Shown: positions 932 to 17,533 of the stretch, one piece after another
How the letters are laid out: each line of letters starts with the position of its first letter
Numbering within the stretch: the stretch's first letter is position 1
Assembly (NCBI GenBank): GCA_938002255.1
Contig: CALLAL010000023.1
Coordinates: 1 to 46,145, forward strand
Reading direction: 5' to 3'
Length of the DNA: 46,145 bases
Source: an uncultured bacterium
GTDB taxonomy: Bacteria; Desulfobacterota; BSN033; UBA1163
Program-made: the position numbers and the translations under genes
Notes under the pieces: generated by a model
The model's database searches: none
Told to the model about the DNA's origin: nothing
What the model saw: the letters and a program-made list of their open reading frames with translations, nothing else

Positions 932-1309
932 TCAATGCTTCTCACAACGATTGATTTGTTTCCAGCCCTCGGAGTGAGAGATTGCTCCCAGTTTGCAGGC
1001 TGTGACACAGGGGGGTAATTCTATCCCATATCCAGGCTTGCAGGGAGCACAATGGTAGCGAATCTTTTTTCTTGCCTCCTGTTTGATTGAGGCCACTGGT
1101 TTTTCCCTGAAGATGTCTATCTCATCCTGACCGACTTCAAGAATATTTTGGGGACAAACTTCCACACACTCCCCGCACCCATTGCATTTGTCTGTGTCCA
1201 GAACGAGATACCAGTCTCCAGTCCCATCTGTAAACCCGTAGTGTGTGATCATAGTTTCCAAAGGAGTGAGTTTGGAGTTCAGAGCTTTAAAATTAGTGAT
1301 ATACTCCAA
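932..1309 (-). CDS. 2[4Fe-4S] ferredoxin-like protein of the activase operon
   Basis: A 125-aa protein with two four-cysteine sets: C42, C45, C48, C52 (CNGCGECVEVCP) and C87, C90, C101, C105 (CAPC, ten residues, CVTAC). The wider second set resembles electron-transfer subunits rather than a minimal bacterial ferredoxin. The likely role is to hand low-potential electrons to the activase encoded just upstream, as ferredoxin does for benzoyl-CoA reductase systems. The start appears to be TTG at 1309, since an in-frame TGA lies four codons upstream; Met20 is the alternative. It begins 22 bases after the BcrD-like gene ends. The C-terminal 12 residues after the last cluster look unstructured. A frame change near the end cannot be excluded, because another open frame continues past this stop. 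Confidence 0.8.
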   Translation of the reverse strand: MEYITNFKALNSKLTPLETMITHYGFTDGTGDWYLVLDTDKCNGCGECVEVCPQNILEVGQDEIDIFREKPVASIKQEARKKIRYHCAPCKPGYGIELPPCVTACKLGAISHSEGWKQINRCEKH

Positions 1310-1331: not shown

Positions 1332-2270
1332 TTACCCTTTTCTAACACTTTTAATCTTGTCCATTTTGAGTAATTCGTAAGCAAATAGTGCTGCTCCTAT
1401 GGCTCCGGCAATCTGGGTATCAAAAGGATATTTTTTCTTCCGATATTTCGAATTCGCCCAGACCTTCTCTTCGGATTTTATTCCCAATTCTTTTTCAAGT
1501 CTTTTAACCACTCCCTCGTTTTTAGCAATCCCGCCTGTGATCACAAACTTCTTTTCAATCCCCAGACGGTTGAGCAAATCCCTGGTCCGATGAGCCATGG
1601 CTGAACAGTAAGCTGCAATGATCTCATTTTCCGGAACGTCTCGCTCAAGGAGTCCCAGTACCTCGCTCTTGGCAAAGACCACACAGGTGGTGCTGACGTG
1701 TGGAGGTTCCCTCGTGATCTGAAAGGACCGTGGCCCTATCTCCCATATTGGGACATGCATCAGATCTGCAAAGACCTCCATACCACGACCCGTGCCAGCA
1801 GCACATTTGTCATTCATGATAAAATTTAAGACCTTGCCCCGTTCGTCGATCCGGATGGCCTTGCAATCCTGTCCGCCCATATCCAGTACCGTTCTGACCT
1901 GAGATCCATACATGAAATTGGCTCCCCTGGCATGGCAGGAGATTTCGGTAACGGTCTGTTGAGCCATCGGGACATTGACCCTGCCGTAACCGGTTCCTAC
2001 ACAGTAGTCGATGTTTTCTAACTTCAAATCGGCCTTCTCCAGAATGTCATCCAATCCCTTTCTGGCGCTGTTCGGACTGTCAGAGCCGGTACGGATGTTC
2101 CCATAAGCAAAAAGCTCACCATCCACCATCACGACGGCCTGCGTGCTGACCGAGCCTACATCCACTCCTGCGGTGATCCATTTACCTTTTTTCCAAGGGA
2201 GATCAGGGTTGACCCAGTTGCTTTCAGGCCATCTCCAGAACTCCACCGAGTTCTCTTTTTTTTGCTCCAT
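1332..2270 (-). CDS. BcrD/BzdQ-type activase subunit, ASKHA ATPase
   Basis: A 312-aa member of the BadF/BadG/BcrA/BcrD ATPase family. The acetate-kinase/Hsp70-like nucleotide fold shows as GVDVGSVSTQAVV (about residues 35-47), TGYGRVNVPMA (93-103) and LDMGGQDCKAIR (129-140). The two bridging-cluster cysteines are C156 in NDKCAAGTG and C196 in TTCVVF. In the homodimeric HgdC activator the equivalent cysteines hold one [4Fe-4S] between subunits. The N-terminal extension ending in NPDLPWKKGKW and the overall match point to the BcrD/BzdQ branch, which pairs with a BcrA/BzdP subunit; that partner is encoded immediately upstream. ATP hydrolysis would drive electrons from ferredoxin onto an acceptor enzyme. 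The acceptor subunits (BcrB/C or HgdA/B type) are not in this window. Confidence 0.9.
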   Translation of the reverse strand: MEQKKENSVEFWRWPESNWVNPDLPWKKGKWITAGVDVGSVSTQAVVMVDGELFAYGNIRTGSDSPNSARKGLDDILEKADLKLENIDYCVGTGYGRVNVPMAQQTVTEISCHARGANFMYGSQVRTVLDMGGQDCKAIRIDERGKVLNFIMNDKCAAGTGRGMEVFADLMHVPIWEIGPRSFQITREPPHVSTTCVVFAKSEVLGLLERDVPENEIIAAYCSAMAHRTRDLLNRLGIEKKFVITGGIAKNEGVVKRLEKELGIKSEEKVWANSKYRKKKYPFDTQIAGAIGAALFAYELLKMDKIKSVRKG

Positions 2271-2280
2271 TCCAATATCC

Positions 2281-3057
2281 TTATTTCATACCGCCCGAGA
2301 GGGCGGCTTCAGCTGCTCCTAAAGCCCCAAAATAATCAGGATCATCCGGCACGATGAGAGGCATCTGCAGATTCTTTTTGAGAGAATCGACAAAACCCTC
2401 ATTCTTCGCCATCCCACCGATCAGGACGACCTCTCGTTCCAATCCTACAATCCGTGCAAGGGAACCCACCCTTGCGGCGATGGCATCCAATGCTGCCCTT
2501 GAGATATCTGACTTGGGAACATTTTGGTGGATCAGAGAGATGACCTCTGATTCTCCAAAGACCACGCACTGAGCATTCATCGGGATGGATCGAGTGGATT
2601 GAAGGGCGAGTTTGGAAAATTCTTCTAACGAAACCTCCAAAGCTCTTGCCATGGCTTCTACAAAGGTCCCTGTACCCGCCGCGCACTTTTCATTGATTGC
2701 AAAATCAAGAACTTTGCCTTCAGCGTCCATGCGGATGGCACGACCTTCTTCGGCACCGATATCAAGAATGGTTCTTCCGCTTGGAATCCGCCGTATTACC
2801 CCTAGGGCATCGGCATTGATTTCTGAAATATATCCTCTGGCAAAGGAGATGCGTTTAGCCGCACTTCCCGTTGCCACCACATATTCCATCTCTTTTCTCT
2901 CAAGGCCGGCCTGTTGCAATACGTGCTGATACAGGAATTCAGCGACTTTTAATTTTTTAATCCCTGAGAGAACTACGCCTTTCCCAACGATTTGATCATC
3001 CTTTTTGATGACCAGATGGATATTTCTGCCACCGACGTCAATGCCTGTGACAATCAT
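2281..3057 (-). CDS. BcrA/BzdP-type activase subunit, ASKHA ATPase
   Basis: A 258-aa ASKHA-fold ATPase of the BcrA/BadF/BzdP branch: GIDVGGRNIHLVI at the N-terminus, DIGAEEGRAIR (99-109) where the BcrD-like subunit has DMGGQDCKAIR, then C125 (NEKCAAGTG) and C164 (NAQCVVFGESEV), spaced as expected for the shared [4Fe-4S] ligands. IGGMAKNEG near the C-terminus is typical of the fold. The start is ATG 3057, which overlaps the stop of the preceding MBL gene as ATGA. Ten bases separate its end from the BcrD-like start. It presumably forms a heterodimer with that protein. Being fused translationally to an MBL-fold gene rather than to bcrB/bcrC is unusual. Confidence 0.88.
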   Translation of the reverse strand: MIVTGIDVGGRNIHLVIKKDDQIVGKGVVLSGIKKLKVAEFLYQHVLQQAGLERKEMEYVVATGSAAKRISFARGYISEINADALGVIRRIPSGRTILDIGAEEGRAIRMDAEGKVLDFAINEKCAAGTGTFVEAMARALEVSLEEFSKLALQSTRSIPMNAQCVVFGESEVISLIHQNVPKSDISRAALDAIAARVGSLARIVGLEREVVLIGGMAKNEGFVDSLKKNLQMPLIVPDDPDYFGALGAAEAALSGGMK

Positions 3058-3893
3058 TCTGAGACCTCCAGAACCGCTCCCACACACCCATAGAAGAATC
3101 GATCTTCGAATTCTTGATGAAGTCTAAATGCCGCCCGCATCCCGGTGCAATGGGAGACGCCGATCTTTTTAATCCGCACTTTCTTTAATGCCTTGATCGA
3201 TTCTTCAAGCTGTTCCGGGGTCAAGAAATCGAGATGGGTTCCTCCGAGGATGGCCTGGAAGGTTTCTCGTCCTGTTTTCTCGATCACATGATGGATGATG
3301 TTGACCATTCCGGAATGGGCACATCCAAGGATTAAAACGAGTCCTTTTTCCGAATCGAGAACAAGAGACTGGTCATCAGGAAAGAGATCCTGAGAGATTT
3401 TACCGTCTCTTTCACAGAAGAGTCTCGGATCAGGTTTTTCAAAGAGGGTTTTTCGTGGAACCTCTCCAGATAAAAAGATGCCTTTTTCGATTTCCAAAAA
3501 ATCTGAATTTAGAACAAAATGTGCCCCCAGGGATTCAAGGTAAGCTTTTTTGTAAGGAATGCCCACAAATTCTCTTTTTTCTCCCTCTTGGTCTTGCTGA
3601 ATCACCATCCGGTCAAGGAAGACCTGAGGATGGATATGGACATCTACCTCTCCTCTCAGTTTTAAGACTTCGGCCAAGCCTCCCGTATGATCATAATGGC
3701 CATGACTTAAAAAGATTTTTTTAATGCTTTTTAAGTCTTTGTTCAGAACGAGAGAATTTCCAACTACGGATGCACCTCTGCCTGTATCAAACAGAAAATT
3801 TCCGTGCCGGGTTTCAAGGAAGGCTGAAAACCCATGTTCTCCAATGCCCACCCGCTTTCCGATTGAATTTTCGCATAAGATGGTTATTTTCAT
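3054..3893 (-). CDS. Cytosolic metallo-beta-lactamase-fold hydrolase
   Basis: A 279-aa MBL-fold protein. The metal motif HGHYDH is at residues 64-69, preceded by FLFDTGRGASV. Later conserved points are GCAHSGMVNI, ILGGTHLDFL and SHCTGM. The pattern resembles the family annotated as 7,8-dihydropterin-6-yl-methyl-4-(beta-D-ribofuranosyl)aminobenzene-5'-phosphate synthase, but that name is rarely tested in bacteria. No signal peptide. It overlaps the dehydratase-like gene before it and the BcrA-like gene after it by ATGA junctions, so it is very probably made in step with them. A thioesterase or hydrolase role on a CoA or cofactor intermediate is a guess. A TAT-exported relative lies at 7353-8414. 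Confidence 0.85.
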   Translation of the reverse strand: MKITILCENSIGKRVGIGEHGFSAFLETRHGNFLFDTGRGASVVGNSLVLNKDLKSIKKIFLSHGHYDHTGGLAEVLKLRGEVDVHIHPQVFLDRMVIQQDQEGEKREFVGIPYKKAYLESLGAHFVLNSDFLEIEKGIFLSGEVPRKTLFEKPDPRLFCERDGKISQDLFPDDQSLVLDSEKGLVLILGCAHSGMVNIIHHVIEKTGRETFQAILGGTHLDFLTPEQLEESIKALKKVRIKKIGVSHCTGMRAAFRLHQEFEDRFFYGCVGAVLEVSE

Positions 3894-5356
3894 TTTGATT
3901 TTTCTCCCAAGATGCCAAGGGCTTCTTGAACCAGTTTTTTTTCGTGTTCATAATCTACCACTCTTTGAATCATAATCTTCTGCGCCATCACCGGACCTGC
4001 TCCATGCCAGGTGCCCACTCCGTGTTGTCCGGCAGTCCAGTTCTGGAGAAGTTTTGTGACTTTCATAATATATTCCGCTGGAACATTGGACCCAAAACCC
4101 AAGAATTCTTCGACATACTTCTTCGTCTCTGGATTTTTCAATTCTTTGAGAGAGGGCAGGGTAACGATCAGACCCCCGCCAATATCGCCCGCCAGTGCCA
4201 TGACCCGCCAGAAGGCATCACAGATATTGAGCTTGGCCACGTTGCCCATCAATTCGTCAGGTAAGAATACGCCAGAACCCGGGGGCTCCTCCTTTCCAAG
4301 ATTGGCAGAAGCCAATCCACAGGCCCTCCCCGTTTCCCTCAGCACAACCATCTCCATCAATTCGTCATTGATGTGCTGGGCTTTTTCAAGGCCCTTATAT
4401 TCCTGAAGAAGCCTGCAAGCCCCGATGATGAGGTTCATAAAACCCACCTTACAGGTTCCTCCACAGGTCATCCGATGGGTTTTGGCAAACCGTTCCACTA
4501 ATTTGATTGAGTAATCGGTTTCACCGCAGTGGAAGACTCGTTCCCATGGGACAAAGACATTGTCGAAAACAACCATGGCGGTCTCTCTCTGACCGAAAAT
4601 GGGGTTTCCCAGTTCAAAGAGGTCTTCCGTCATCTCCCTCTCAGCAGAATAGGGGGAGTACTGGCAAATATAGGTGAGCCCTTCTGTGTCTGCTGGGATG
4701 GCAAAGGAGAGGGCATAGTCTGCTTCGTCCTTTTTCTTGGCTGATTGTGGAAGAACGACCAGTTCATGGCTGACAAACGCACCACTGATGTTGATCTTTG
4801 CTCCTCTTACGACGATTCCATCCGATTTTTTTTCCACCACCTTAAGAGAGAGATAAGGATCCGGCCAATCGAGAGCCCTTTTCTTGCGGTCCCCTCTTGG
4901 CTCCGTTAAAGCTCCTGAGACAGCCAAATCGTTTTCCTGAATCCACTTCAGATATTTTGTAAAACGGGAATGGTATTCCGTTCCAAGGGTTTGATCCATC
5001 TCCCAGGTGGTGCTGGCAAGACTGTGAAAGGCATCCAACCCCGGACATCGATAAATACAGGTTCCCAAACGCTCAGCAGCAAATGTGCCGGCAATCGCTT
5101 TTGCAACCAGATCTTCACGGCTGCGACAGACATAGACATACCGATTGACACGATCGTTGGTAAGAGGGGAGATGGCCGTCATCACGTCCTGAGAATCGGG
5201 ATCCAACGCCCAGCGATAACTGGCTTTGTTTGCCTCAATGACAGTGCGGATGTTGGGATTGTTGAAAAAATCCTCGACTTTTTTCCCGTTCATAAAAATC
5301 TTGGGTTTTCGACCTTTTAAGCTTTCCTCATACTTTTCGGGTGTTATCAGTGCCAT
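3890..5356 (-). CDS. 4-hydroxybutyryl-CoA dehydratase / HpaB-family flavoprotein
   Basis: 488 aa, starting at ATG 5356 because a GGAGTTCTGGAG stretch precedes it. The frame is open 25 codons further upstream, but that part overlaps the preceding gene. It belongs to the 4-hydroxyphenylacetate 3-hydroxylase/4-hydroxybutyryl-CoA dehydratase fold (FAD). The [4Fe-4S] motif of the dehydratase branch is present: C100 and C104 in GTCIYRCPG, then H294 and C302 in THRMTCGGTCKVGF. In the Clostridium aminobutyricum enzyme the ligands are C99, C103, H292 and C299. Here the His-to-Cys spacing is one residue longer and a cysteine (C298) sits near the position of catalytic Tyr296. So the enzyme likely binds FAD and Fe-S and acts on a CoA thioester, but the exact substrate is open. 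It is the head of the ATGA-coupled block with the MBL and activase genes. Confidence 0.82.
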   Translation of the reverse strand: MALITPEKYEESLKGRKPKIFMNGKKVEDFFNNPNIRTVIEANKASYRWALDPDSQDVMTAISPLTNDRVNRYVYVCRSREDLVAKAIAGTFAAERLGTCIYRCPGLDAFHSLASTTWEMDQTLGTEYHSRFTKYLKWIQENDLAVSGALTEPRGDRKKRALDWPDPYLSLKVVEKKSDGIVVRGAKINISGAFVSHELVVLPQSAKKKDEADYALSFAIPADTEGLTYICQYSPYSAEREMTEDLFELGNPIFGQRETAMVVFDNVFVPWERVFHCGETDYSIKLVERFAKTHRMTCGGTCKVGFMNLIIGACRLLQEYKGLEKAQHINDELMEMVVLRETGRACGLASANLGKEEPPGSGVFLPDELMGNVAKLNICDAFWRVMALAGDIGGGLIVTLPSLKELKNPETKKYVEEFLGFGSNVPAEYIMKVTKLLQNWTAGQHGVGTWHGAGPVMAQKIMIQRVVDYEHEKKLVQEALGILGEKSK

Positions 5357-5385: not shown

Positions 5386-5904
5386 TTACTTCGCGATTAA
5401 ACTTGCTTCCGAGAGAATTTCGACCATCCATTTTGCTGCTTTACCCACCACCTCAGGGCAATGAACGTCATGGGCTCCTGCATTGTGGAACTTTTCATAC
5501 TCCTGGGGGTCGGCAAGATAATAGTATCGGCCGAGAAGTTTGTTTTGAATATCTCGACAGATCACGGAGCCATATTCTTGAATAAATTTCTCTCGAAATT
5601 GTCTTGCGAGTTGATGGGTTTTAAAACGAATCCCTTTGGGATCAGCAAAATTATCCCTCTCCCGACCGATGATTGAGCTCAAGACCAGGGTGGCACCGAT
5701 ATAGGCTCCGCACCCATTGTCTGCAGCAAGACCCGTTCCTCCCGCGAGGGCTGTGGCCGCTTTGAAGATCTCTTGGTTTTCAATCTGGAGAGCATCTTGA
5801 AGGGCTGCCACCACACACTGACCACATCCTCGATAAGTCTTTTCATATTGTTTCCCTAACTGGTAAGCTTTTTTCGCCATGCCCGTTTTCGTGGTTTTTC
5901 CCAT
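5386..5904 (-). CDS. C_GCAxxG_C_C family (redox-type cysteine) protein
   Basis: A 172-aa soluble protein with the cysteine pattern of the C_GCAxxG_C_C family: C27 and C30 in RGCGQC, C65 in the NGCGAYIGATL signature, C116 in SVICRD and C149 in VHCPEVVG. Members are often found with redox or metal-transport genes in anaerobes and are thought to bind an iron-sulfur cluster or metal; the function is not settled. The start at ATG 5904 has a good GGAGG eight bases upstream. It sits 29 bases before the dehydratase-like gene. This suggests it serves that flavoenzyme, for example in electron supply or cluster maintenance (inference). Confidence 0.8.
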   Translation of the reverse strand: MGKTTKTGMAKKAYQLGKQYEKTYRGCGQCVVAALQDALQIENQEIFKAATALAGGTGLAADNGCGAYIGATLVLSSIIGRERDNFADPKGIRFKTHQLARQFREKFIQEYGSVICRDIQNKLLGRYYYLADPQEYEKFHNAGAHDVHCPEVVGKAAKWMVEILSEASLIAK

Positions 5905-12416: not shown

Positions 12417-12503
12417 AAAAGTCAAGAGGATATTTTTTGTGTTCGTCGTGAGTAAAAGTTAAAAATTTTAAATTTGAATTTTTTATGTTATATAGCAAAC
12501 GCG

Positions 12504-13742
12504 ATGATACACGTCGAAGAAGCTATTGAAATGATTCTTTCCCATATCCAGCCCTTGGGGTGCGAAAAAGCTTCTATCCTGGAGTCCCTTGGCCGGGTCA
12601 TTGCAGAAGATGCCATCGCCCCACGTGACCTTCCTCCCTACGATAATTCAGGGATGGATGGGTATGCGGTTCGATCAGAAGATGTTCAAAATGCCTCTCA
12701 AACTCATCCCATTCGGTTAGAAGTCATTGAAGACCTTCGAGCTGGTTTTTTTGCAAAAAACCCAGTCCAAAAGGGACAGGCGATCCGGATCATGACTGGG
12801 GCTCCCATCCCCATGGGAGCAGATGCAGTCATTCCAGTGGAAGATACAGAGAGAGGAGATGGGTCGGTTCTTGTTTTTAGACCTCTTTGTCCTGGAGATT
12901 TTATTCGGAAGGCAGGAGAGGATGTTAAGAGAGGAGATCTTGTGATCACTCAGGGGGAGATTATCCGCCCCTCGGAAGTGGGAATGCTCGCCTCGATTGG
13001 TAAATCTTTTGTTTTAGTTTATCGAAGACCTCTGGTTGCCATTCTCTGCACAGGTGAAGAATTGGTAGACGTTGGAGAAACCTTAGAGGGTGCAAAGATC
13101 GTTTCCAGCAATTCCTATACCTTAGCCGCCCAGGTGAAAGAATGCGGAGCCATTCCGATGCAATTGGGGATCGCCCGGGACCATAAGGAAGAGATCAAAG
13201 AAAAACTCCTTCAAGGCCTCCAGGCAGACGTCTTTATTTCTTCCGCGGGCGTTTCAGTTGGAGACTATGACTTTGTGAGAGATGCCTTAAAAGAACTCGG
13301 TGCGAGGATGATTTTCTGGCGGGTTGCCATGAAGCCGGGCAAGCCCGTTGCCTTCTGGCTTTATGAAGGAAAACCTGTCTTCAGTCTTCCAGGGAATCCT
13401 GTTTCTTCTATGGTAACGTTTGAAACGTTCGTGAGGCCTTCCCTTCTGAAGATGATGGGACACCGTCATCTCTTTCGTCCTGTGATTGAAGCCACGCTTA
13501 AGGAAGAGATCCGAAAAGAACCGGGTCGAAAACATTTTATGAGGGCTATTCTTTCCCAAGAGGGTAAAGGATATTATGTCACCACGACGGGACCTCAAGG
13601 TTCGGGAATTTTAAAATCTATGGTTAAGGCTAATGGGTTAATTATTGTCCCAGAGGAATGTGAAATCTTAAGAGCTGGGGAGAAGGTAAAAGTCCAATTA
13701 CTCGATAGTTCGGAGTTTGGGGTATTGAGTCCGGAAACATGA
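12504..13742 (+). CDS. moeA: Molybdopterin molybdenumtransferase MoeA
   Basis: 412 aa from ATG 12504; a TTG ten codons earlier is also open. MoeA inserts molybdate (or tungstate) into adenylylated molybdopterin. Signature regions are PPYDNSGMDGYAVR, MTGAPIPMGADAVIPVEDT, CTGEELVDVG, SSNSY, SSAGVSVGDYDF and MKPGKPVAFW, followed by FSLPGNPVSSMVTFETFVRP. The C-terminal beta-barrel domain IV is complete. There is no strong ribosome site. It is followed by mobB at 71 bases, and faces the modABC operon, so cofactor synthesis and metal uptake are adjacent. Confidence 0.95.
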   Translation: MIHVEEAIEMILSHIQPLGCEKASILESLGRVIAEDAIAPRDLPPYDNSGMDGYAVRSEDVQNASQTHPIRLEVIEDLRAGFFAKNPVQKGQAIRIMTGAPIPMGADAVIPVEDTERGDGSVLVFRPLCPGDFIRKAGEDVKRGDLVITQGEIIRPSEVGMLASIGKSFVLVYRRPLVAILCTGEELVDVGETLEGAKIVSSNSYTLAAQVKECGAIPMQLGIARDHKEEIKEKLLQGLQADVFISSAGVSVGDYDFVRDALKELGARMIFWRVAMKPGKPVAFWLYEGKPVFSLPGNPVSSMVTFETFVRPSLLKMMGHRHLFRPVIEATLKEEIRKEPGRKHFMRAILSQEGKGYYVTTTGPQGSGILKSMVKANGLIIVPEECEILRAGEKVKVQLLDSSEFGVLSPET

Positions 13743-13813
13743 AACTTTTTTAAATTTTTTGGTTTTAGACTGCAAGCTCCGAACCCAGGACTCAAAACGG
13801 GAGCAAAGCAACG

Positions 13814-14461
13814 ATGATTCCAATCATTTCTATTGTAGGTAAGTCAGATAGCGGGAAGACGACCTTTATCGAAAAATTATTGCCGGAACTTGTCCACAGA
13901 GGCTATCGGGTGGCCACAGTCAAGCATGATGTTCATGGGTTTGAGGTGGATCGCGAAGGAAAGGATAGCTGGAGACATAAACAGGCAGGTGCCCACACAA
14001 CCGTTATTTCTTCACCGCAGAAAGTTGCATTGATTCGTGATGTGGAGAGGGATATGTCCCTCGCAGAACTCCGGGAACAATTCATTCAAGACGTGGACCT
14101 TATCCTTTCAGAAGGATATAAAAAAGATGTTCAACCCAAAATCGAAATATTTAGGAAAGAAAAACATCAAGAGCTCCTATGCACCAAAGAGGATAACCTG
14201 GTTGCGATTGTGTCGAATAAACCATTCGATGTTGGGATTCCATGTTTTTCACTGGATGACCCTAAAGCGGTAGCTGATTTTATTGAGGAAAAGTTTCTGA
14301 AATCGAAAAAAGAAAAGGAAATCACCTTGAAAGTCGATGGACGTTTGGTTCCTTTAAAACCCTTTATTAGAGATTTTCTGATGGGATCGATCAGAGGGAT
14401 GGTTCAGTCTCTCAAAGGATGCGAAAAACCCAAAAAGATTCAGATTCAAATTGATGATTGA
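13814..14461 (+). CDS. mobB: Molybdopterin-guanine dinucleotide adapter MobB
   Basis: A 215-aa P-loop GTPase: GKSDSGKTTFIEKL (Walker A), ATVKHDVHGFEVDREGKDSW and HKQAGAHTTVISSP, then LILSEGYKKDVQPKIEI, all typical of MobB, which assists MGD synthesis. A C-terminal extension of about 50 residues (TLKVDGRLVPLKPFIRDFL onwards, ending in KKIQIQIDD) resembles a short domain found in MobB proteins of anaerobes. Its presence implies bis-MGD molybdo- or tungsto-enzymes such as formate dehydrogenases elsewhere in the genome. Confidence 0.92.
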   Translation: MIPIISIVGKSDSGKTTFIEKLLPELVHRGYRVATVKHDVHGFEVDREGKDSWRHKQAGAHTTVISSPQKVALIRDVERDMSLAELREQFIQDVDLILSEGYKKDVQPKIEIFRKEKHQELLCTKEDNLVAIVSNKPFDVGIPCFSLDDPKAVADFIEEKFLKSKKEKEITLKVDGRLVPLKPFIRDFLMGSIRGMVQSLKGCEKPKKIQIQIDD

Positions 14462-14594
14462 ATCCGAAGCCTGTGCTGAACCCTTTTTCTTCATTCCTGA
14501 AATTCTTTAACCTGTCCCTGACGTGTGGAGGGCGGGTGGTTCTCTTAGGAAAAGGGAAGCGTGACGGGGGCGCGGAAAGATTCATCAAGATCTC

Positions 14595-15689
14595 TTATTC
14601 CATCACCCAGAAGGCTTCATCGCGAAGAGCAACCTTCACTCCCTTGCCTACAAAAAGATCAAGATTTCGGTAGGCATAGTTCGGGATGGAAATTTCAAAG
14701 GGAATCTCTTCATTTTGGGGATGGAAGAAAACCGTATGATGTTTTCCTCGATCCACAATGTCTTCAATCTTCCCATCGAAAATATTCCATTTCAGGGAAT
14801 CCTTGATGGGCTTTCCATCACGGATGATCATGACCTCTTCGGGCCTGAGGTAGAGGTCAAACTCTTTTCCTTCAGTGATTTCACCCAGAGAAGCGTGATG
14901 TGGGATAGAAAATTGGAGGTTGTTAACGCTTACCCTCCAACGGTTGGACTCCTTCTCTTGACAGATGGCTTTTCCCCTAAAAATGTTTTTCAATCCTAAA
15001 AAGAGGGCAACCGGTTTTGATCGAGGCCTTAAAAAGACATCATCTCTTGTTCCCACCTGTTCCACCTTGCCATGAATAAAAACCGTTATTTTATTCCCAA
15101 GCAGATAGGCTTCTTCAAAGTCATGGGAAACGCAGAGAACCGTCGGACGGAATGAGGCGTGGAGGGTTTTCAAAAGTTGCTGAATTTCAAACTTGATGGA
15201 AGGGTCAAGGCCAGTGAGGGGTTCATCAAGAAGAAGGAGTTTGGGCTTTGGGGCTAACGCCCTAAGCAAAGCCACCCTTTTTTTTTCCCCTCCACTGAGT
15301 TTAACTGGATATCGTTCGAGGAGAGGCCCGATCCTCATTACCTGAATAAGTGAATCGACATATTCGGAATACGTGGCTAACGGATGGTTTTTAGCCCTGA
15401 TGCCATAAAGGATATTCTCCCTCACGGTTAAGTGGGGAAAGAGGGCGAGGTCCTGAGGAACATAAGAGATTTCTCTTTGCTCGGGAGGCAGATGTTGAAC
15501 CTCTCTCTCAGCCACCCAGATCTTTCCCTTTTTGGGCCGGTGGAGTCCGATGACAGATTCTAAGATGAGGGTTTTCCCACTTCCTGTTGGACCAAGAAGA
15601 AAATGAAACTCGCCTTCCTCAATCTGAATATGAAAATCGTTCAACTGAAACGTTTTCAAAAAAATGGTTAGACCCTCGATTCTAATCAT
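14595..15689 (-). CDS. modC: Molybdate/tungstate ABC transporter ATP-binding protein
   Basis: A 364-aa ATPase with Walker A GPTGSGKTLI, signature LSGGEKKRVALLRAL, Walker B LLLLDEPLTGLD and the H-loop CVSHDFEEA. The C-terminal 130 residues form a regulatory TOBE-like region (DLYLRPEEVMIIRDG onwards). It overlaps the permease gene by eight bases, the third gene of the modE'-modA-modB-modC operon. Tungstate instead of molybdate cannot be ruled out. Confidence 0.9.
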   Translation of the reverse strand: MIRIEGLTIFLKTFQLNDFHIQIEEGEFHFLLGPTGSGKTLILESVIGLHRPKKGKIWVAEREVQHLPPEQREISYVPQDLALFPHLTVRENILYGIRAKNHPLATYSEYVDSLIQVMRIGPLLERYPVKLSGGEKKRVALLRALAPKPKLLLLDEPLTGLDPSIKFEIQQLLKTLHASFRPTVLCVSHDFEEAYLLGNKITVFIHGKVEQVGTRDDVFLRPRSKPVALFLGLKNIFRGKAICQEKESNRWRVSVNNLQFSIPHHASLGEITEGKEFDLYLRPEEVMIIRDGKPIKDSLKWNIFDGKIEDIVDRGKHHTVFFHPQNEEIPFEISIPNYAYRNLDLFVGKGVKVALRDEAFWVME

Positions 15690-16458
15690 ACCGAATCATC
15701 CTGCCTGTAAGTCGAACACCATACAGGGCAATCAATCCCAGAGTAATCAGGATGAGAATCAGGACAATGGTTTTCTCGATCCTGGCTGAAGCCAGAGCTG
15801 TAAAAATAGCGATAGGCATGGTCTCAGTCTTTCCAGGCATGGCGCCGGCAAGGGTGACCGTAGCGCCAAATTCCCCCACAGCTTTAGCCCAGGAAAGGAT
15901 CACAGAGGCTAATAACCCCCGAAAAGAGAGGGGAAACGTGATGCGATAGAAAGCCTGCCAGGAGGAGGATCCGAGAGACCGAGCGACGGCTTCATATCTT
16001 GGAGAAATTTCATCCAAGGAGGCCTTCATTAACCGGGTAGCTAAGCCTGCGATTGTCGCAAATTGCGCGAGGATGATGCCTGGGAATTCAAATACAAAAA
16101 AGATGCCTCTTGTCTGGATGGCTTCTCCGAGGGGAGTGTTAAAAAAGACGAGAAATGAAGCTCCGAGAGCGATAGGCGACATGATCATCGGGATTTCGAG
16201 AAAGGTATCAATGATCTGCTTTCCTGTGAATTCATAGCGGGAGAGGGCATAGGCGGATGGGAGGCCGATCACTATGGCAAGGAAAGTCGCCAGGGAGGCG
16301 GCAATCAGGCTCAGGCGAATGGAAAAGAGGGTGGAGGGGTGAACTAGTGCCTCCCAGAAACCCTTGGGGCTTACAGAAAAGAAAAGGGAGGCTAAGAGGC
16401 CAAAGTAGAAGATGAAAATACACAGGGCAGCTCCGATCATCGTATAACGGAATCCCAT
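15682..16458 (-). CDS. modB: Molybdate/tungstate ABC transporter permease
   Basis: 258 aa from ATG 16458, which has AGGAGAACC directly upstream; a TTG six codons earlier is the alternative. There are about six membrane helices. The ATPase-contact EAA loop is RYEAVARSLGSSSWQAFYRI, followed by SWAKAVGEFGATVTLAGAMP, which is characteristic of ModB/WtpB/CysT-type permeases. It is 178 bases after modA, a larger gap than elsewhere in the operon; I see no gene or clear terminator in that gap. Confidence 0.9.
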   Translation of the reverse strand: MGFRYTMIGAALCIFIFYFGLLASLFFSVSPKGFWEALVHPSTLFSIRLSLIAASLATFLAIVIGLPSAYALSRYEFTGKQIIDTFLEIPMIMSPIALGASFLVFFNTPLGEAIQTRGIFFVFEFPGIILAQFATIAGLATRLMKASLDEISPRYEAVARSLGSSSWQAFYRITFPLSFRGLLASVILSWAKAVGEFGATVTLAGAMPGKTETMPIAIFTALASARIEKTIVLILILITLGLIALYGVRLTGRMIRYD

Positions 16459-16636
16459 AGGTTCTCCTATATGCAAGGGAGATACAGATATCAGATGATC
16501 CGGAAAACAGGGTTCAGAATATGGAAATACCGAAGGGTCATAGAAAGAATAAGACCTTTCGCGTTTGACCTGATCCCCTGATATGCTTGTCGCCTCATCC
16601 TGGTAACCTGGTCATCTGAAAACCATTTCATTGTTT

Positions 16637-17533
16637 TTACCTGGTTCTCCATTCCTTCGGCACCCTATATTCTCCTCCAACCGGAGTATCAGATTTCGCG
16701 AATTGGCGCGCCTCGTGAACATCCATCAAGTAATTAAATTTTCGGAAAATGTTTTTTCCTTCCGACGAAAGAAGGTAATCAATGAATTGCTGAGCTAACG
16801 CCCTGTCTTGGGTAAATTTAGAAATGGCAATGGGAATATAGCCGATCCTTGGAATTTCATCCGGCTTGAGATAGATGGTCCCAATCCGCTCAGGGTCCCA
16901 ATATTGAAACACCCGCCATCCAAGCACGGCATCCACTGCTTTGAGAGAGATGACATTCGCTGTTTTTTCACAGCTCTCTGTATAATTGATCAAATTTTTT
17001 CTGAGCTTTTCCTTCTCCTGGGGAGTTAGATTCCTCTCAATGATCTCGACCGCGTAAGTTCCGACACAGACCATTTCTGGATTGGCGATTGCCAGTCGGA
17101 TGCCAGGACGGGTTAAATCCTTTAAGGAGTAAATCTTCTTCGGGTTTCCCTTCTGGACATTGATGGATGGGACAAGATAGACGACCATCTTTTCCGATTC
17201 AGGAAAGACAACTCCTTCCGTTTTGGCTAATTCCATAAAATCAGATGAACCCGGGAAATAGATGTCTCCCTTTCTGGATAATTTCATCTGGGAAAGAACG
17301 AACCCCGAACCTCCGAAGGTCACATTGACCGACCCCCCCGTTTTTATCTGAAAATTCTTGATGGCCTCCTCCGTAGCAGGTTTGCTTGCTGCCCCCGCAA
17401 AGATGAGAAGACTCTTGGTGGAGGACGCGGAGGAGGGTCGAGAGGGGATAAGAATAGAAAGGATCATGATCAAAAAGAGAATTTTGGAGAACACTGGAAG
17501 AAAGACATAACCCAGATGAAGCACGATGATCAC
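16637..17533 (-). CDS. modA: Molybdate/tungstate-binding periplasmic protein
   Basis: A 298-aa extracellular binding protein with an N-terminal hydrophobic signal (FLIMILSILIPSRPSSASS). The mature part begins LLIFAGAASKPATEEAIKNF, and VTFGGSGFVLSQMKLSRKGD holds the oxyanion-binding serines. Further matches are VYLVPSINVQKGNPKKIYSL, ANPEMVCVGTYAVEIIE and a C-terminal FIDYLLSSEGKNIF. It starts with GTG, whose bases overlap the stop of the ModE-like gene (GTGA), so the two are translationally coupled. The ligand, molybdate or tungstate, is not resolved. Confidence 0.9.
   Translation of the reverse strand: MIIVLHLGYVFLPVFSKILFLIMILSILIPSRPSSASSTKSLLIFAGAASKPATEEAIKNFQIKTGGSVNVTFGGSGFVLSQMKLSRKGDIYFPGSSDFMELAKTEGVVFPESEKMVVYLVPSINVQKGNPKKIYSLKDLTRPGIRLAIANPEMVCVGTYAVEIIERNLTPQEKEKLRKNLINYTESCEKTANVISLKAVDAVLGWRVFQYWDPERIGTIYLKPDEIPRIGYIPIAISKFTQDRALAQQFIDYLLSSEGKNIFRKFNYLMDVHEARQFAKSDTPVGGEYRVPKEWRTR

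Follow-up and report, generated by a model that had tools for sequence, protein, structure and literature searches.

A CGGxC clade of 4-hydroxybutyryl-CoA dehydratase-like proteins with altered active-site residues, viewed from a locus of an uncultured Desulfobacterota bacterium

We analysed a 46,145-nucleotide stretch from an uncultured Desulfobacterota bacterium (contig CALLAL010000023.1 of GenBank assembly GCA_938002255.1; the whole stretch is termed the window), in which a minus-strand gene at 3890-5356 encodes a protein resembling 4-hydroxybutyryl-coenzyme A (CoA) dehydratase (4HBD). The product probably belongs to a distinct CGGxC subfamily, from anaerobic bacteria, of 4HBD-like enzymes with a [4Fe-4S] cluster and flavin adenine dinucleotide (FAD), which would be acyl-CoA lyases or dehydratases other than 4HBD itself. 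Comparisons throughout were made with the two crystallised 4HBDs, from Clostridium aminobutyricum (1U8V) and, in an oxygen-tolerant form, from Nitrosopumilus maritimus (6VJR).

The 4HBD-like gene and its active-site residues

The gene and its motifs are as follows.

3890..5356, minus strand: 4HBD-like protein of the CGGxC clade (488 aa and a stop codon), with [4Fe-4S]/FAD cofactors and their ligands presumed from sequence
5045..5059, minus strand: C100-I-Y-R-C104, the first two presumed cluster ligands, with Y102 in place of Q101 of 1U8V (coordinates computed from residue number)
4451..4477, minus strand: H294-R-M-T-C298-G-G-T-C302, with H294 and C302 as presumed third and fourth cluster ligands and C298 in place of Tyr296 (pattern match 4443-4477)
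3995..4024, minus strand: HGVGTWHGAG, residues 445-454, at the site of the missing YRTE stretch that carries E455 in 1U8V (coordinates derived from residue numbers)

The start at 5356 was preferred over a longer alternative at 5431 because homologues likewise open with MALxTPE; AAAGGAG lies just upstream of it. Both HpaB Pfam domains were found in the 488-aa protein (HpaB_N, 284.5 bits; HpaB, 189.9 bits), and the closest solved structures by sequence were the two crystallised 4HBDs (E=1e-105 for 1U8V, 1e-99 for 6VJR); the product belongs to the 4HBD-like branch of the HpaB superfamily. Identity as an HpaB 4-hydroxyphenylacetate 3-monooxygenase was rejected on scores below the curated NCBIfam cut-offs (HpaB-1, 163.6 bits versus 480.2; HpaB-2, 90.3 bits versus 885.2). 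HpaB flavin monooxygenases share the Pfam domains HpaB_N and HpaB and the overall fold, whereas the cluster cysteines and histidine are missing from the HpaB-like proteins of the outgroup. A comparison with PHROGs gave no match.

C100-x3-C104 and H294-x7-C302 occur where the first-pass annotation had placed them. In the alignment, C100, C104, H294, C298 and C302 correspond to C99, C103, H292, Y296 and C299 of 1U8V, and a Lys follows the last Cys as in that enzyme. The loop from His to Cys had been described as one residue longer than the H-x6-C of C. aminobutyricum, which the alignment bears out (H-R-M-T-C-G-G-T-C versus H-R-Q-S-Y-G-G-C, with one residue inserted before the last Cys). The extra cysteine, C298, is likewise present; it had been thought to fall near the catalytic Tyr296, but it occupies the Tyr296 column itself, and the catalytic tyrosine is absent from the protein. 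Furthermore, Q101 is replaced by Tyr (Y102) and E455 is lost with the four-residue stretch YRTE. It is these three changes, rather than the spacing, that provide the stronger evidence for an altered active site, and the annotation was right to propose one. Its step from longer spacing to a different cluster geometry did not hold as argued: H-x5-C (6VJR), H-x6-C (1U8V) and H-x7-C all occur, the loop varies family-wide, and spacing alone is not diagnostic because the crystallised N. maritimus 4HBD, which shares the fold and the presumed ligand positions and keeps the Tyr and Glu, has H-x5-C.

An AlphaFold2 model of the 488-aa protein, which is cofactor-free (predicted local distance difference test score 93, predicted template modelling score 0.92), superposed closely on both 4HBDs: Z 53.9 with a root-mean-square deviation (rmsd) of 1.3 A over 478 residues for 1U8V, and Z 55.0 with an rmsd of 1.4 A over 477 residues for 6VJR, at 40% and 36% full-length identity, respectively, in the structural alignment. 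A helix runs from 280 to 300 in the model, with H294 and C298 one turn apart, and the next helix starts at C302, so that the extra loop residue is absorbed by helix. In the model of a Tyr-type control (L047), this helix stops at 292 and resumes at 295, with the break (293-294) at its Tyr. Since the fold is intact and the residues are invariant, H294 and C302 likely reach the cluster, as judged from the prediction.

A conserved clade outside the crystallised dehydratases

The alignment comprised about 125 homologues taken from the fetched loci (126 open reading frames, one spurious) plus 1U8V and 6VJR. C100, C104, H294, C298 and C302 were identical in 60/60 proteins with the H-x7-C motif, all of which also carry CGG[TAS]C, C-x3-C and [QL]RET. 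The presumed cluster-ligand positions (Cys, Cys, His, Cys) are therefore kept in the clade, as are the changes: Tyr296 to Cys in 60/60, Q101 to Tyr (Y102) in 60/60, and loss of E455 in all clade members examined. Two subgroups, HRM[TV]CGG[TS]C and HRMNCGGAC, share the altered residues.

The first-pass annotation had raised the possibility that the CGGTC variant forms a clade of its own, and the trees agree: all 60 CGGxC proteins fell in one clade with support 1.0, and monophyly persisted after the altered motif columns had been removed (28/28 thinned members, support 98). In both trees, 1U8V and 6VJR group together elsewhere with no CGG member among them. H-x7-C with CGGTC, whose presence in proven 4HBDs had been named beforehand as the refutation, was found in neither crystallised enzyme. 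Two Archaeoglobi 4HBD-like paralogues (L050, L055) came out as sister to the clade in both trees. They resemble it in having C-x3-C (within TCNYRC), the His and the Cys and in lacking the E455 stretch, but they differ in their HRC[AV]GAAC with H-x6-C and in having no Cys in place of Tyr296.

Among 395 genomes sampled from the window's phylum (Desulfobacterota-type relatives), 37 genomes in 24 genera carry the motif, which also occurs in Dehalococcoidia. Pairwise ratios of non-synonymous to synonymous substitution (dN/dS) within the genus were about 0.02-0.05 where synonymous sites were unsaturated, and the CGGxC gene is under strong purifying selection; together with the retention of all five residues in 60/60 members, these values argue against chance or sequencing error as the source of the altered motif. 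Substitutions of Tyr296 are found in further paralogue groups as well (His in ten, Gly in three); within the superfamily, diversification at this site has therefore happened more than once. One separate group (L138, L144-L146, L148-L151, L154, L090) has HRQSHGGC, with His for Tyr296, H-x6-C kept and E455 absent.

Candidate reaction and alternative readings

To our knowledge, 4HBD belongs to a small set of enzymes able to remove an unactivated hydrogen via a flavin/iron-sulfur ketyl radical; it also serves as a marker for CO2-fixation cycles. Because three of its defining active-site residues (Tyr296, E455 and Q101) were tested for and not found, the product of 3890-5356 should not be filed as 4HBD. 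The reaction of the clade probably differs from that of the known enzyme, and different radical chemistry, as the first-pass annotation had suggested, is plausible. By analogy, the most likely mechanism would be elimination on an acyl-CoA through flavin/cluster radical chemistry. The protein would bind FAD and, via C100, C104, C302 and H294, a [4Fe-4S] cluster, with the acyl-CoA held between flavin and cluster. As in 4HBD, H294 would take the alpha proton, one electron would pass to the flavin and the leaving group would depart from the resulting ketyl-type radical; C298 may now serve as the acid/base or hydrogen relay in place of Tyr296, and the substrate would be a CoA ester other than 4-hydroxybutyryl-CoA.

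Gene contexts in some relatives, with CoA ligases and B12-dependent mutases close to the clade gene, support a role in CoA-ester metabolism. In one lineage (L015, L123, L173), HcmA-HcmB-HCL-like genes lie directly upstream of the clade gene, and the best solved matches of this mutase pair and ligase are 2-hydroxyisobutyryl-CoA mutase and 2-hydroxyisobutyryl-CoA synthetase. In L121 (5123-8992), L124 (6146-10285) and L170, the 4HBD-like gene is flanked by genes for a PaaK-type CoA ligase and a UroD/MtaA-like protein with a methyltransferase fold, an arrangement seen in both clade subgroups and in different families, and other clade loci place a mutase, MeaB and adenosyltransferase beside it. A 2-hydroxyisobutyrate pathway as the general clade function was rejected: although HCL and HcmA also lie on another contig of the window's own genome (G000), close HCL homologues across the family (G000, G010, G011, G013) co-occur with the clade (G000-G004, G006-G008, G014) only in G000. 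ComF/SAM-hydrolase (SAM, S-adenosylmethionine) neighbours, conserved in Desulfomonile-type loci, look unrelated.

Several points weigh against a distinct, non-4HBD subfamily. The catalytic roles of Tyr296, E455, Q101 and E257 in 4HBD are taken here as presumed. Thr259 aligns with E257 of 1U8V, with an invariant Glu258 one column away after a one-residue insertion, and this E258, displaced by one residue, may be the retained E257. The adjoining genes vary from lineage to lineage and do not imply any single substrate. In the literature searched, no paper describing the CGGxC clade and no characterised member were found, and cofactors and reaction are inferred; a 2026 paper on benzene activation merely cites 4HBD as an analogy (PMC13101534).

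A bolder version of the radical-elimination reading, which we hold to be possible and rather doubtful, has a rewired iron-sulfur site, with C298 serving either as a cluster ligand (a four-Cys cluster, with the His free as base) or as a thiol/thiyl relay. The enzyme would then carry out an acyl-CoA radical elimination unlike that of any known 4HBD, for example on the branched or 2-hydroxyacyl-CoA esters handled by the HCL/HcmAB genes adjoining in one lineage.

That the product is a plain 4HBD tolerating Cys for Tyr296 and a longer loop is unlikely. Full-length identity to both crystallised enzymes, a common fold and the retention of every presumed ligand position are consistent with it, and the loop already differs in length between those two 4HBDs; nevertheless, the three residue changes run through all members of an otherwise strongly conserved clade that falls outside the group holding both structures. 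Comparably improbable is a four-Cys cluster formed by C100, C104, C298 and C302, with H294 only a base and the cluster structural or electron-transferring instead of acting as a Lewis acid. Two invariant C-x3-C pairs and the modelled helix through H294 and C298, set against the broken helix of the Tyr-type control, would fit such a cluster, but H294 is still invariant in 60/60 members and the models in question are cofactor-free.

For the favoured reading, a subfamily distinct from 4HBD, the consequence is one of annotation and of opportunity: the existence of a large and well-conserved sister subfamily whose active site has changed calls for caution in annotating 4HBD in anaerobe genomes, and the CGGxC clade offers a natural Tyr-to-Cys variant for probing which residues set radical chemistry and cluster ligation.

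Neighbouring genes in the window

The gene order in the window is enoyl-CoA hydratase, C_GCAxxG_C_C protein, 4HBD-like gene, metallo-beta-lactamase-fold protein, BcrD-like and BzdQ-like activases and ferredoxin, with the following coordinates.

5386..5904, minus strand: C_GCAxxG_C_C redox-type protein, upstream of the 4HBD-like gene
3054..3893, minus strand: metallo-beta-lactamase-fold protein, with a 4-base overlap at the end of the 4HBD-like gene
2281..3087, minus strand: acyl-CoA dehydratase activase/BcrD-like ATPase (partnership with the 4HBD-like protein not supported)
1332..2270, minus strand: BzdQ-like activase ATPase (TIGR03192, 403.7 bits versus a cut-off of 380.2)
932..1309, minus strand: ferredoxin-type 4Fe-4S protein

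Of these, the metallo-beta-lactamase gene is the neighbour that recurs most widely in clade loci of different phyla, both in the window's own genus and in Dehalococcoidia. It is very improbable that the 4HBD-like protein is the catalytic partner of the two ATP-dependent activases and the ferredoxin, drawing low-potential electrons from them: the genes are adjacent on one strand and the same neighbours lie near in several same-genus members, but in same-genus G007 and G002 (L209, L210) a distance of about 6-9 kb, occupied by unrelated genes, separates the activases from it, almost no clade locus beyond the genus has them (the exceptions being a 30% activase match in L019 and others of 32-37% in L168), and an HgdAB/BcrBC-like pair in the same genome is a simpler partner.

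The two activase ATPases (window 1332-3087) stand without the usual catalytic subunits nearby, and the HgdAB/BcrBC-like pair lies on contig C21 of the same genome (G000:C21; L206, 6621-9123), on which no PF01869 activase was found; the window activases and this pair may belong together. Further along, window 12474-17533 holds, as read from the translations, a MoeA-like molybdopterin-type gene and a MobB-like gene, with an ATP-binding cassette (ABC) transporter and its TupA/ModA-like binding protein on the opposite strand, and looks like a molybdate/tungstate uptake and cofactor cluster.
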